DNA of 64,000 bases from Bacillota bacterium (GTDB taxonomy: Bacteria > Bacillota > Sulfobacillia > Sulfobacillales > Sulfobacillaceae): NCBI GenBank assembly GCA_021821465.1, contig JAKACM010000016.1:1-64000 (forward strand), in the 5' to 3' direction. A model generated the notes under the pieces. That model was not told the DNA's origin, did not search any database, and was given only the letters and a program-made list of their open reading frames with translations. Positions 109 through 17,230 of this stretch are shown piece by piece; position 1 is the stretch's first letter; every line of letters begins with the position of its first letter. A program made the position numbers and the translations under genes.

Positions 109-448
109 CTGGGGAAGTCTGAGCCTATAACCTTCTTCAGCACCTGTCAAGCAATAACCTTATCGGCTCTAATCTGACGGAAAAATGCCGGGGTGGTTGA
201 CACATGGCTAAGGTGTACCCCAAATGGACAATGCAGAGTTTTCGTCAAACAACGCCAGCCAGAATGGGGGCCTCCGATTACCTGTCCTCTGTGTCCCATT
301 CTACCGTGGGCAATCCGCGCGGTTTTTGTGTTCATCCACCTTTCCGAGGGGATGTGCAAAAACACCCAGAATCGGAGTGTGTCAAGCTCTAGGAAAAAAG
401 GGCCAGCCTACACTACAGGGGGAACACTGACTGCCTGATACGGATTCT
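109..448. other. Non-coding stretch with one IS-end-like repeat
   Basis: No convincing gene: short overlapping reading frames run in all directions without good ribosome sites. The only recognisable element is repeat copy A at 214-250. The stretch separates the truncated frame at the window edge from the minus-strand lipoprotein gene. Confidence 0.5.
214..250 (+). repeat. Solo IS-end-like repeat, copy A
   Basis: Begins TGTACCCCAAATGGACA, then a 2-nt variable spot, then GCAGAGTTTTCGTCAAAC. The same block recurs in the same orientation at 2755-2795 and partially at 4191-4210. It starts with TG and has the C-rich then A-rich look of IS3-type ends, but no transposase lies next to any copy. I see the repetition directly; the IS-end reading is inference. 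Confidence 0.6.
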
Positions 449-13394: not shown

Positions 13395-13955
13395 ATGGAA
13401 GTGTTAAATCGTATGGCTTATCTTATACTTGAAGATCCGTTTATTACCGCAGCAGAATTATCGCAAAAATTGGGTTACTCGGAAGAAAAAACTATTTATT
13501 ATTGGCTGTCCAAGGCTCATTATCGAGGATTGCAAGCATTTAAGCGAGCTGTGGTCGGAGGGCGATTTCGCCTACCAGCCGTGGCAGCTCATGAAAATGC
13601 CGCTCATTACGGACGCTTGCCTGTGGTGGATGGCTTCGGTCAAGACGGCAAGCCCATTGTGACCAAGGAAACTCTATCGGGAAGCCTTGCTGCCAATGTT
13701 TTGGGTCGCATGGCCTGGCGTTATCACGGGCCGGAGCAAGGGCCTGTTCAAAGCGGGGATCTGCTGCTTTTAAGTCCTTTACAGGACAATGACCCGGCAA
13801 AGTGGGTTTTAGTCGGGTCGAATAAATTACCTACTGTTTTGCTTCGCATTGCATCGGGGTCCAATATCTGTTACATCCACCCTGATACCTATGAACCAGC
13901 CAGTGCCGACTCTGAAAAATACCGTATTGTGCAGATTCTTCGCAATTTGTTTTAA
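13395..13955 (+). CDS. Putative DNA-binding protein with N-terminal HTH
   Basis: 186 residues; ATG preceded by AGGAGGAG with a longish spacer. Residues 15-45 (FITAAELSQKLGYSEEKTIYYW) look like a helix-turn-helix that recognises a site and presents a tyrosine-rich second helix. The C-terminal half contains VQSGDLLLLSPL and KWVLVGSNK, resembling the beta-rich fold of LexA/S24-type repressors, but I see no Ser-Lys catalytic pair. It is the first gene of the plus-strand block that splits the fab-rnc and smc genes. Probably a regulator; exact family not recognised. Confidence 0.55.
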   Translation: MEVLNRMAYLILEDPFITAAELSQKLGYSEEKTIYYWLSKAHYRGLQAFKRAVVGGRFRLPAVAAHENAAHYGRLPVVDGFGQDGKPIVTKETLSGSLAANVLGRMAWRYHGPEQGPVQSGDLLLLSPLQDNDPAKWVLVGSNKLPTVLLRIASGSNICYIHPDTYEPASADSEKYRIVQILRNLF

Positions 13956-14151: not shown

Positions 14152-14595
14152 ATGGTGTATTGTCGTCATTGTGGCGATCAAATTCCGGTTGACAGTGTAT
14201 TTTGTCCCAGTTGTGGTCACAACTTGCTGCTTGATACCGCTTCGGCTAATCCTTCTCCCGAAGGAGCTGCAATGGTTCAACCCGCAAGAGAGCAATCCAC
14301 TAGAGGGAGAACAAACTGGACCGAAAAACTAAACCTATCGGGAATCCGGCGTTACATTGGGTCGATTTTTGGCATAATACGGTTTGAGTGGCTAAAACGC
14401 CGGACTTCCCGATGGTCCGTATCCCAAGTGCTCATGGGTGCAAGTTTCGCATTTTCTCTTGTCGGATTTTTATGGAGCCTTTTGGGACATCACGACGGAT
14501 TCTCGTGGATCGGTTTTGCAATTGTTCTTGGTCTTGGCGCAATATACACCAAAGGATCGACGAATCGCACAGATCCCCCAGACGTATCGGAATAA
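14152..14595 (+). CDS. Zinc-ribbon membrane protein, unknown function
   Basis: 147 residues, ATG preceded by GCGAGGGATGAG. Residues 4-22 form a double-CxxC zinc ribbon (CRHCG and CPSCG). A polar linker follows, then a basic amphipathic stretch and two predicted membrane segments (about 95-112 and 117-132). The next gene, a class A penicillin-binding protein, starts 28 bp downstream and carries the same kind of zinc ribbon at its N-terminus, so the two may form a complex through related domains. No specific family assigned. Confidence 0.65.
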   Translation: MVYCRHCGDQIPVDSVFCPSCGHNLLLDTASANPSPEGAAMVQPAREQSTRGRTNWTEKLNLSGIRRYIGSIFGIIRFEWLKRRTSRWSVSQVLMGASFAFSLVGFLWSLLGHHDGFSWIGFAIVLGLGAIYTKGSTNRTDPPDVSE

Positions 14596-14623
14596 GTTGC
14601 AACGAAGGAGATGACACAATAGC

Positions 14624-17230
14624 GTGCGTTGCCCAAAATGTGGACAGGAGAATGCGGCCGGTTCGGCGTTTTGTCGATTTTGCGGACGAAAATTGCCTGG
14701 TTCTGCAAAAAAGCGCCGCAAGTTAGGGATCCCGAATACGACGTCCTCGTCCGGCACAGCAAAGAACAAAAGCAGCAGCGATAAGAAAAAAACCGCTACA
14801 GGACGACGAAAAATACGGTGGGGCCGGGTCATTCTTTTAGGAGTGACTGGCTTCTTGGTCAGCGGGTTTGGATACAGCGGTTATGTTGCCTATAAGGCTT
14901 TTCGGTCGTTGCCGCCTATCCAGTCTATCGTGTCTGCCCAATCACAAGGTCAAGATTCGGTGATTTATGACCGTTTTGGTCAACCCGTAGCCAGGCTTCA
15001 CGGAACCACTAACCGTGTTGATGTGCCGATCTCGCAAATCTCGCCCAATATGCAACATGCCATCGTTGCCATTGAAGATCACAGTTTCTATACCAACCCC
15101 GGATTTGATCTTACTGCTATTATTAGGGCGGCTCTTGTGGACATTGTTCACCTGGCCCCGGTCCAGGGAGCCAGTACGATAACCGAACAATTGGCCAAAG
15201 ACATGTATTTGAGCGAACAAAAGACCATGGTCCGAAAAGCCCGGGAATTTCTCATCGGCTTGGAACTGGCACACACCTATTCCAAGCAACAAATCCTGGA
15301 TATGTACCTGAATCAGGTCTATTTAGGCGATGGAGCCAGCGGAGTGTATTCGGCAGCCAAAGCATACTTTGATGAAAAGCCCTCTCAGCTCACCTTGCCC
15401 CAATCTGCCATGTTGGCGGGCTTGCCGCAGGCACCTTCTCTTTACGACCCCTTGGTCAACTTCAAATTGGCGAAACAGCGCCAGCTCTTGGTTCTCGGGG
15501 CTATGGCTAAATACGGCTACATTAGCAAAGCTCAAGCCCAAGCCGCATATAAGGCGCCTCTAAATTTGCATCCCGTAGCTGTCGACGCCGCCAATAGCCA
15601 GATGTATCCCTATCCTTGGTATGTAGACCATGTGATTCGGGTGCTCTATCAGAAAGGATTTACGGGAACTCAAATTTTTGACGGCGGATTAAAAATTTAC
15701 ACAGCCTTGGATCCCAAGATTTATAACATTGCCCAAAACGCCGTTGACAGCAATATGAATTACAATTTCGGCGTCTCTCACTCACCGAATCCCACATACC
15801 AGGCCGCGGCCGTCGTCGAAGATCCTCACAACGGCTATATCTTAGCCGCTATCGGCGGAAGAAAATTCAGCCAACCGTTTCAGGAGGATTTCGCTACCAA
15901 TACGAATGTGAAGCGATCGACAGGATCGTCCATAAAACCGTTATTGGAGTATACACCGGCTATCGCCAAAGGCTACACCCAAATGTCCGTTCTTCAGGAC
16001 GTGCCCATTTTCAAGGTCAACGGGCAGTGGTGGCCGCATAACGACAACCATGTATATCGCGGTTATATGGACCTGCGTGATGCGTTGGCCATTTCCGATA
16101 ACGATGTCGCCGTGCACTTGTTACATGACATCGGCTTAAACTACGGATACAATTTTGCCAAAGATAAATTTGGCTTGCCTTTGACTCAAGCAGATTTGCA
16201 TGCGGGACTGGGAATAGCCATTGGTGGGTTGCCGCAAGGCTTCAACGTATACCAAATGACCCAGGCTTATTCCACATTTCCCAATAATGGTGTGCGCATG
16301 AACCCTATCTGGGTGACAAAGGTTGTTAACGGCAACGGGGCCGTCGTCTTCCAAGATACGCCCCATGGCACTACGGAGTTTAGTCCTCAAGTGGCCTATA
16401 TCATGGATAAGATGATGGAACGTGTCTTGGATCCCAATGCGATTCCGTCCATCGGACCCGGATCCTATTCCACGGGTTATCAACTGGGTATCGGACGTCC
16501 TGCTGCCGGTAAGACCGGAACCAACAACGGTGAAGCCGACGCTTGGTTTATGGGCTACACCCCGCAACTTATGGTCGGAGTCTGGGAAGGTAACCGCAAG
16601 GGTGAATATCCTCAGCCCTCCACCCCCAATGGCCCAGCCTACGGAGATGTCGCGGCAGGACCCATTTGGAAGCAGATCATGCAACAGACTAATCAGGCGG
16701 AACATCTTCCCGTCGAACATTTTCCTCGCCCCAATAATATGGTTTACGTGCCCAACGTCAGCATTACCTCGGGAAAAATCGCCAGTCGCTATGCTCCGTC
16801 TTCAGATGTACAGGGCGCCTGGTTTATTAAAGGAACTCAACCGACAACTATCGGCAACTCCCATTACCCGGTAAAGGTGGTAGCATCCCACCCGAACGAG
16901 AGGTGGCAACCAGGTTGCGGACCTTACGTCACCACCCCGTTCTTGCGCCAAGAATCGGATTGGCACTCTGGCGTGCCCATTCCTTGGGACTCTAAATTCT
17001 GGGCTCCTACACAAACGTGCACTCCAAACTTCCAACCGTCACCATCTTCGTCTCCGTCGTCATCCTCATCGACATCACCATCCTTTTCGCCGTCGCCGTC
17101 GACATCACCATCGTCGGCGCCATCAACATCCCCATCAACGTCACCGTCTGCCGGTGCTGTCACGACTTCACCCACCAGCCAATCGTCTAAGCCATCGCCG
17201 TCAAATTCCTCACCGTCCGGTTCAAACTAA
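14624..17230 (+). CDS. Class A penicillin-binding protein with N-terminal zinc ribbon
   Basis: Bifunctional peptidoglycan synthase at the outer face of the membrane. Start GTG 14624; AAGGAG lies 15 nt upstream, rather far. Residues 3-21 are a cytoplasmic zinc ribbon (CPKCG and CRFCG), then a basic linker, one membrane anchor at about 66-88, and a GT51 domain (IEDHSFYTNPG, GASTITEQLAKDMYL, RKAREFLIGLELA). In the first GT51 motif the usual EDxxFxxHxG reads EDHSFYTNPG, so His is Asn. The transpeptidase domain has catalytic SSIK in STGSSIKPL, SDN, and KTGTNNGEA. The last 60 residues are a Ser/Pro-rich low-complexity tail. A zinc ribbon on a PBP is uncommon. Confidence 0.85.
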   Translation: MRCPKCGQENAAGSAFCRFCGRKLPGSAKKRRKLGIPNTTSSSGTAKNKSSSDKKKTATGRRKIRWGRVILLGVTGFLVSGFGYSGYVAYKAFRSLPPIQSIVSAQSQGQDSVIYDRFGQPVARLHGTTNRVDVPISQISPNMQHAIVAIEDHSFYTNPGFDLTAIIRAALVDIVHLAPVQGASTITEQLAKDMYLSEQKTMVRKAREFLIGLELAHTYSKQQILDMYLNQVYLGDGASGVYSAAKAYFDEKPSQLTLPQSAMLAGLPQAPSLYDPLVNFKLAKQRQLLVLGAMAKYGYISKAQAQAAYKAPLNLHPVAVDAANSQMYPYPWYVDHVIRVLYQKGFTGTQIFDGGLKIYTALDPKIYNIAQNAVDSNMNYNFGVSHSPNPTYQAAAVVEDPHNGYILAAIGGRKFSQPFQEDFATNTNVKRSTGSSIKPLLEYTPAIAKGYTQMSVLQDVPIFKVNGQWWPHNDNHVYRGYMDLRDALAISDNDVAVHLLHDIGLNYGYNFAKDKFGLPLTQADLHAGLGIAIGGLPQGFNVYQMTQAYSTFPNNGVRMNPIWVTKVVNGNGAVVFQDTPHGTTEFSPQVAYIMDKMMERVLDPNAIPSIGPGSYSTGYQLGIGRPAAGKTGTNNGEADAWFMGYTPQLMVGVWEGNRKGEYPQPSTPNGPAYGDVAAGPIWKQIMQQTNQAEHLPVEHFPRPNNMVYVPNVSITSGKIASRYAPSSDVQGAWFIKGTQPTTIGNSHYPVKVVASHPNERWQPGCGPYVTTPFLRQESDWHSGVPIPWDSKFWAPTQTCTPNFQPSPSSSPSSSSSTSPSFSPSPSTSPSSAPSTSPSTSPSAGAVTTSPTSQSSKPSPSNSSPSGSN

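Follow-up and report, generated by a model that had tools for sequence, protein, structure and literature searches.

A zinc ribbon on a class A penicillin-binding protein of the Sulfobacillales and its covariation with a small membrane protein encoded beside it

Introduction

As MacP and GpsB show, class A penicillin-binding proteins (PBPs) can be acted on through contacts in the cytoplasm or the membrane. In the accessible text of PMC10746261, MacP is a cofactor of PBP2a in Streptococcus pneumoniae, a protein of 104 amino acids with one transmembrane helix and a proposed site of action close to the TM-jaw interface. GpsB is described as binding the cytoplasmic mini-domains of PBP1, PBPA1 and PBP2a, where charged residues matter (PMC6335420, accessible text). 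The present analysis concerns a stretch of 64,000 nucleotides (hereafter the window; contig JAKACM010000016.1, positions 1 to 64,000, from the 4.96-Mb draft genome GCA_021821465.1 of the order Sulfobacillales), in which a class A PBP and the small protein encoded directly upstream of it (hereafter the partner) both begin with a zinc ribbon. Residues of the PBP ribbon shift with the presence of the partner. Docking of the partner by the PBP ribbon in the cytoplasm, with the partner as a membrane cofactor of the synthase, is suggested here with a rough probability of 0.5.

Like MacP, as far as that account describes it, the partner is small and is predicted to combine an N-terminal cytoplasmic part with a C-terminal membrane part and almost nothing outside the cell. 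MacP serves one class A PBP; the layout of the partner is similar, and such a requirement would here be an analogy only. The two differ in that MacP has one transmembrane helix whereas the partner has a zinc ribbon and a transmembrane hairpin, and in that the covariation found here centres on the ribbon, the transmembrane helix and the GT51 domain showing no excess. In the GpsB systems, as putatively in the window, the docking site is the N-terminal tail of a class A PBP in the cytoplasm; the mini-domains bound by GpsB are, in the text available, short peptides with a key Arg rather than zinc ribbons, and GpsB is cytosolic. The likeness of the partner to MacP or GpsB is one of description, and Pfam and NCBIfam scans showed no relationship. 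RagB/YrrS of Bacillus subtilis is likewise a small membrane protein supporting peptidoglycan polymerisation, but it boosts RodA and has an extracellular disordered region and a folded domain (PMC12457691, accessible part). TcaA of Staphylococcus aureus is a zinc ribbon domain-containing protein linked to the glycopeptide response; it differs in its length of 454 residues and is not described in the accessible part of PMC10611510 as fused to or encoded with a PBP. While PBP cofactors as such are already known, the shift of ribbon residues with partner presence is new here and provides a testable co-evolution signal.

Architecture of the pair

The features of the two genes are as follows (plus strand throughout; AF2, AlphaFold2).

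14152..14595, plus strand: partner, 147 amino acids, with a four-Cys zinc ribbon, a hypervariable linker and a C-terminal transmembrane hairpin
14158..14226, plus strand: zinc ribbon of the partner, residues 3-25, C4, C7, C18 and C21 (PF13240 and alignment)
14419..14559, plus strand: predicted transmembrane hairpin of the partner, about residues 90-136 (hydropathy, AF2 helices and conservation)
14624..17230, plus strand: class A PBP, complete, 868 amino acids, GTG start
14630..14695, plus strand: zinc ribbon of the PBP, residues 3-24, C3, C6, C17 and C20 (PF13240)
14819..14905, plus strand: predicted transmembrane segment of the PBP, about residues 66-94, preceded by a basic linker (hydropathy 1.43 and alignment)
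14981..15505, plus strand: GT51 glycosyltransferase domain, residues 120-294 (PF00912, 1.6e-58)
15806..16582, plus strand: transpeptidase domain, residues 395-653, with S435-x-x-K438, SDN 491-493 and KTGT 630-633, which we take to be the motifs usually given these names (PF00905, 6.1e-20; alignment)

Both open reading frames lie where the earlier note had placed them, and the ribbons that it had read at their starts were recovered, each protein carrying one four-Cys ribbon built from two CxxC pairs and not two ribbons. Zn_Ribbon_1 (PF13240) matched the partner at residues 3-25 with 31.6 bits and the PBP at residues 3-24 with 27.8 bits (cut-off 25); these are two of the five PF13240 matches in the genome at E up to 0.001. 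The ribbon cysteines were invariant in 22 aligned PBP rows and 16 aligned partner rows, as were I11-P12-V13-D14-S15 and F17-C18-P19 in the partners. Over the 25 codons of the partner ribbon, 6-11 synonymous-only changes stood against 0-2 amino acid changes in comparisons with five relatives; over the 23 codons of the PBP ribbon, the values were 2-15 and 1-8 with 12 relatives, synonymous changes being the fewer in one comparison (L022, 6 vs 8). Both ribbons look translated.

The PBP combines a GT51 and a transpeptidase domain with an N-terminal membrane anchor predicted from hydropathy, as expected of a bifunctional class A enzyme, and solved structures of class A PBPs match it (3udf, E 4.5e-74). 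Since the NCBIfam model for PBP1A (TIGR02074) scored 504.4 bits, just under its cut-off of 508.75, the protein was filed as a class A PBP and not in the PBP1A subfamily. It is 93% identical to a PBP from a metagenome-assembled genome (MAG) of Sulfobacillus benefaciens and 99% identical to one from another Bacillota MAG. The genome of the window encodes three GT51 proteins, the other two without a ribbon.

Two hydrophobic segments are found near the C-terminus of the partner (Kyte-Doolittle 1.96 and 1.35), with F101, V104-G105-F106, W119 and F122 invariant in the hairpin. The hydrophobic segment of the PBP is weak (1.43 at residues 70-88), and the maximum of this protein (1.46) falls inside GT51. 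The basic linker in front of the latter segment and the C-terminal position of the former would place both ribbons in the cytoplasm. Given its ribbon-hairpin layout, with little outside the membrane in the predicted topology, the partner should therefore act from the cytoplasm or the membrane. Its Pfam and NCBIfam scans returned only zinc-binding families and weak matches, a search of solved structures gave eight uninformative matches (E 0.12-0.94), and tblastn against plasmids gave none.

The short gap of 28 nucleotides between the genes suggests co-transcription; in 16 partnered relatives it measures 1 nucleotide (10/16) or 27-31 nucleotides (6/16). Scans for promoters (5 vs 4.6 expected) and terminators (6 vs 4.7 expected) showed no excess.

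Ribbon residues and presence of the partner

The order was sampled with 42 genomes from three families, f1 (34), f2 (7) and f3 (1). Columns of the PBP alignment were compared between rows with and without an adjacent partner, using ten clades as units, six with and four without. A first set held 22 partnered and 12 partnerless rows and excluded L009 (near-identical to the window), L012, f2, outgroups and some same-genus genomes. A second set of 27 partnered and 18 partnerless rows added L102 (from the genome of L012), L118, L222-L224 and six paralogs, and still excluded f2 and the near-duplicate of the window.

In the first set, a Jensen-Shannon (JS) divergence above 0.6 was reached by 6 of 24 ribbon columns, compared to 3/39 at residues 57-95, 1/175 in GT51, 3/254 in the transpeptidase domain and about 6/151 in the C-terminal part. 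The PBP ribbon residues following partner presence are 5, 9, 11, 15, 22 and 23. The true clade grouping ranked first among 210 assignments, or among 28 with orthologs only, and out of 757 alignment windows the 12 best (all rows) and the 6 best (orthologs only) overlapped the ribbon. The shift is well above both the tree-based and the entropy-matched expectation. Simulations were run on a tree built without the ribbon columns, with a null that agrees with the body of the PBP (observed 0.147, expected 0.158), and none of 5000 simulated sets reached the observed ribbon mean, neither with all rows nor with orthologs only. The excess survived the omission of any one of the ten clades. With the second set, the grouping again ranked first of 210 with 0/5000 simulated sets; restricted to orthologs, it ranked first of 28 with 3/5000 simulated and 4/5000 resampled sets. 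In this set, Lys or Arg occupies position 5 in 27/27 partnered but 2/18 partnerless rows, residue 9 is acidic in 27/27 vs 3/18, and Lys23 is present in 26/27 vs 0/18.

The transmembrane helix, the junction between it and GT51, GT51 itself and the transpeptidase domain were tested for the same excess and showed none; a contact through the transmembrane helix in the manner of MacP was accordingly dropped as a reading of the covariation. The signal is suggestive of a contact between PBP and partner, short of proof.

Distribution of the ribbon and of the partner

A PBP profile built from 22 orthologs matched all 42 genomes of the order, the best copy beginning at model position 1 or 2. When read directly, the ribbon was present at 31/31 loci of the order and a further 7/7 loci of f2, and at 0/58 places outside the order (27 + 31; 36 from the same class and 22 from the wider phylum). 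At one of the outside places (G116, L195) the frame is not clean, with a stop soon after the match begins. No outside profile match among those listed starts before model position 8; one of these searches scored two candidates per genome. The profile start was discarded as evidence of absence, and direct reading was used instead, because the ribbon of the paralog L164 was missed by its match, which starts at 49. In these searches the fusion was seen in this order only, and the situation which the earlier note named as speaking against its idea, a common fusion with freely varying neighbours, was not encountered for PBPs.

A search starting from the ribbon also found no ribbon-PBP outside the order in ten long ribbon frames fetched among the matches listed: in eight (L172, L174-L180) a long ribbon frame could be read, without any PBP domain by Pfam, while L171 gave only an unrelated frame of 460 codons and L173 none. 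No ribbon-PBP fusion was found in the literature by title or abstract start, a coverage from which subscription journals are mostly missing.

Second PBP paralogs in f1 carry the ribbon in 11 of 14 cases and lack it in three, and no ribbon gene lies upstream of the five whose upstream sequence was read. The only PBPs seen to have lost the ribbon are 3/9 further paralogs (L208, L209 and L210), none of them with a partner match next to it; the statement that every PBP of the order keeps the four Cys was given up. These three are second f1 paralogs, and L208 is a broken remnant with one CxxC kept.

The partner profile gave 27 strong matches (E < 1e-28), all in f1, and in 27/27 the ribbon PBP is the next gene downstream, in the same orientation (coordinates compared by hand). 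A 28th pair was found in the f3 genome G015, where a ribbon-transmembrane partner again directly precedes the PBP; within the 10 kb fetched, the LexA-fold gene (see below) and rnc were not found and a match to smc lies downstream. The pair stays together in G015 in another gene neighbourhood, and adjacency amounts to 28/28 f1 and f3 genomes having the partner.

A proposed docking model and its alternatives

Ribbon-mediated docking is the simplest model because of the layout of the partner and the ribbon-centred covariation. The partner, a small protein with a ribbon and a transmembrane hairpin, would be made just before the PBP, whose ribbon would dock it in the cytoplasm, perhaps via the ribbon of the partner itself, although a ribbon-to-ribbon contact is a guess. 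The partner might then place, stabilise or switch the synthase from inside, along the lines of MacP or GpsB, and the PBP ribbon would also serve some other purpose where no partner adjoins. Here we infer from the sequences the topology, zinc binding, co-transcription, direct binding and any effect on the enzyme. A bolder version, which we hold doubtful, is a zinc-ribbon clasp, in which the ribbons of the PBP tail and of a dedicated ribbon-hairpin membrane subunit would bind each other in the cytoplasm and form a structurally new class of cofactor complex with an assembly dependent on intracellular zinc. Should the ribbon prove to be a dock, a wall synthase could be run from the cytoplasm in yet another way, and this could point to a use for the zinc ribbons on other envelope proteins. 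The idea is directly testable, since the partnerless lineages form a natural experiment and the residues to mutate can be named.

Several observations weigh against docking as the explanation. The earlier note had suggested that the partner may be a dedicated regulator, which is supported by the constant adjacency; against it stand the 14/42 genomes (7/34 in f1, 7/7 in f2) in which the PBP ribbon is kept without an adjacent partner, and the 11/14 f1 paralogs that carry a ribbon. The seven f1 genomes without a strong partner match belong to genera g2, g3, g5 and g7; in the PBP tree, partnerless f1 orthologs fall into two groups and the paralogs used into two more, some deep forks being weak. 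Three of the seven f2 genomes carry a ribbon-transmembrane-hairpin protein elsewhere, not beside the PBP. Since the ribbon persists where no partner adjoins, it has some other use, and the partner was rejected as its sole reason. Within the covariation, the partnered exception G041 (L118) has Thr23, and f2, without adjacent partner, has a basic residue 5 in 6/7, an acidic residue 9 in 7/7 and Arg23 in 7/7 cases. A ribbon excess also arises for f2 against the partnered clades alone (8/2000) and is left with f2 placed among the partnered clades (1/2000); because of these f2 results, drift of the ribbon by clade may explain part of the signal. Body columns 145 and 299 reach JS 1.00 like residue 23 in the first set, and of ten columns at JS 1.00 in the second set with orthologs only, two are in the ribbon and eight outside. 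The count statistic is weaker with orthologs only (first set, 32/5000 simulated and 59/5000 resampled; second set, 22/5000 and 51/5000), and the GT51 alignment window 140-163 comes near the ribbon value (0.095 vs 0.123, orthologs only). The alignment was inspected before the test was chosen, and independent clades are few. Moreover, the AF2 model of the partner is too poor to support a fold search, with low-confidence helices at 90-110 and 116-136 and a mean predicted local distance difference test score (pLDDT) of 59.6. What the earlier note had proposed as a docking or sensing module is supported as a dock indirectly, by ribbon residues that track the partner while other regions show no excess, and is set back by the persistence of the ribbon without it.

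That persistence would be expected if the ribbon were a generic cytoplasmic N-terminal tag, or a stability or insertion cap, on bitopic envelope proteins of this class, with no specific partner, and the upstream gene were kept beside the PBP by operon inertia, the alternative that survives best and a possible one, if on balance unlikely. Other envelope proteins of the class and the order do carry ribbons together with a transmembrane segment and extracytoplasmic parts, which makes the ribbon-PBP architecture less exotic. Pfam places a ribbon together with Trypsin_2 and Peripla_BP_6 in one protein at five loci of the class (L172, L176, L178, L179 and L180); these resemble the PBP in having an N-terminal ribbon, a hydrophobic segment (judged by eye) and then extracytoplasmic domains, and differ in that the latter are protease-like and ligand-binding, with no peptidoglycan synthase. 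A ribbon is also found on an SBP_bac_5 protein (L177), and within the order a Trypsin_2 protein (L047) carries one too. A generic tag does not predict a link to partner presence that is stronger in the ribbon residues than elsewhere in the PBP, nor that the pair is kept in f3 amid different nearby genes.

Also in line with a generic tag, the genome of the window encodes on contig C199 a ribbon-transmembrane protein (L006) with a Ser/Pro-rich low-complexity stretch and a small ectodomain; it has no Pfam match beyond the ribbon, and L037, L038, L040, L041 and L046 have a similar layout.

Docking of the ribbon to another cytoplasmic scaffold, e.g. a DivIVA-family protein, with the partner modulating that site, would be in line with a ribbon kept without an adjacent partner, with the one DivIVA-family protein (a 159-codon frame) in the genome of the window and with the binding of PBP mini-domains by GpsB in other Bacillota (PMC6335420, accessible text), but a scaffold alone does not explain the partner-linked changes, and we regard such docking as improbable. 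Ribbons of the PF13240 kind are often structural, the covariation sits in non-Cys residues and three paralogs have lost the ribbon, all of which makes it hard to credit, despite four Cys kept in all main PBP copies read and in 11/14 paralogs, that the ribbons are zinc- or redox-sensing modules modulating peptidoglycan synthesis, with the partner as a co-sensor rather than a dock.

Neighbouring genes and further features of the PBP

Three further features were noted at the locus.

13395..13955, plus strand: helix-turn-helix (HTH) gene with a LexA fold, 186 amino acids (AF2, Foldseek, tblastn and invariant columns)
14605..14610, plus strand: AAGGAG, Shine-Dalgarno-like, 13 nucleotides 5' of the PBP GTG, a long spacing (read from the sequence)
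17036..17227, plus strand: Ser/Pro-rich, hypervariable C-terminal tail of the PBP (alignment)

The gene order is smc (minus strand), the LexA-fold gene, the partner and the PBP (all plus), followed by rnc-fabF-acpP-fabG (minus); the PBP and the LexA fold were named by the analysis, while smc, rnc, fabF, acpP and fabG are what we take the other genes to be from their sequences. The LexA-fold gene, absent from the earlier note, encodes an HTH and a LexA-like C-terminal fold (AF2 model with pLDDT 81.2; best Foldseek matches LexA, E 9.8e-7, TM-score 0.44). By tblastn it lies beside the pair at 22/23 ortholog loci and at 7/7 f2 loci. LexA has a conserved catalytic Ser-Lys dyad. In 23 aligned sequences, no invariant or near-invariant Ser or Lys was found in the C-terminal half of the LexA-fold protein, which is perhaps not self-cleaving for this reason; it is perhaps a non-cleaving LexA relative controlling the PBP. 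A locus about 99% identical to that of the window is present in a MAG placed in another genus (G047, contig C278; L096, same sequence as L009), perhaps a contaminated bin.

Motif 1 of GT51 usually contains His. In the PBP it reads EDHSFYTNPG, with Asn158 (15095-15097) at this position, as the earlier note had seen; E151, D152, F155 and N158 are invariant in 22 rows. Asn is found at 31/31 loci of the order, in 3/27 outside relatives (L124-L126) and in three distant relatives (L032-L034). Among the other GT51 proteins of the genome, the one on contig C81 also has Asn and the paralog on C104 has Glu. The ribbon-bearing paralogs L159 and L160 have Asp and Gln, respectively, neither Asn nor His. 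A tie between Asn158 and the ribbon was rejected, given Asn in the ribbonless L124-L126 and Asp or Gln in L159 and L160. As read from the alignments, Asn158 is a lineage variant rather than a loss of the GT51 domain; a literature search on the GT51 His residue found no paper. Outside the catalytic domains, Cys765 and Cys799 (16916-17020) are invariant in 22 aligned PBPs and perhaps form an extracytoplasmic disulfide.

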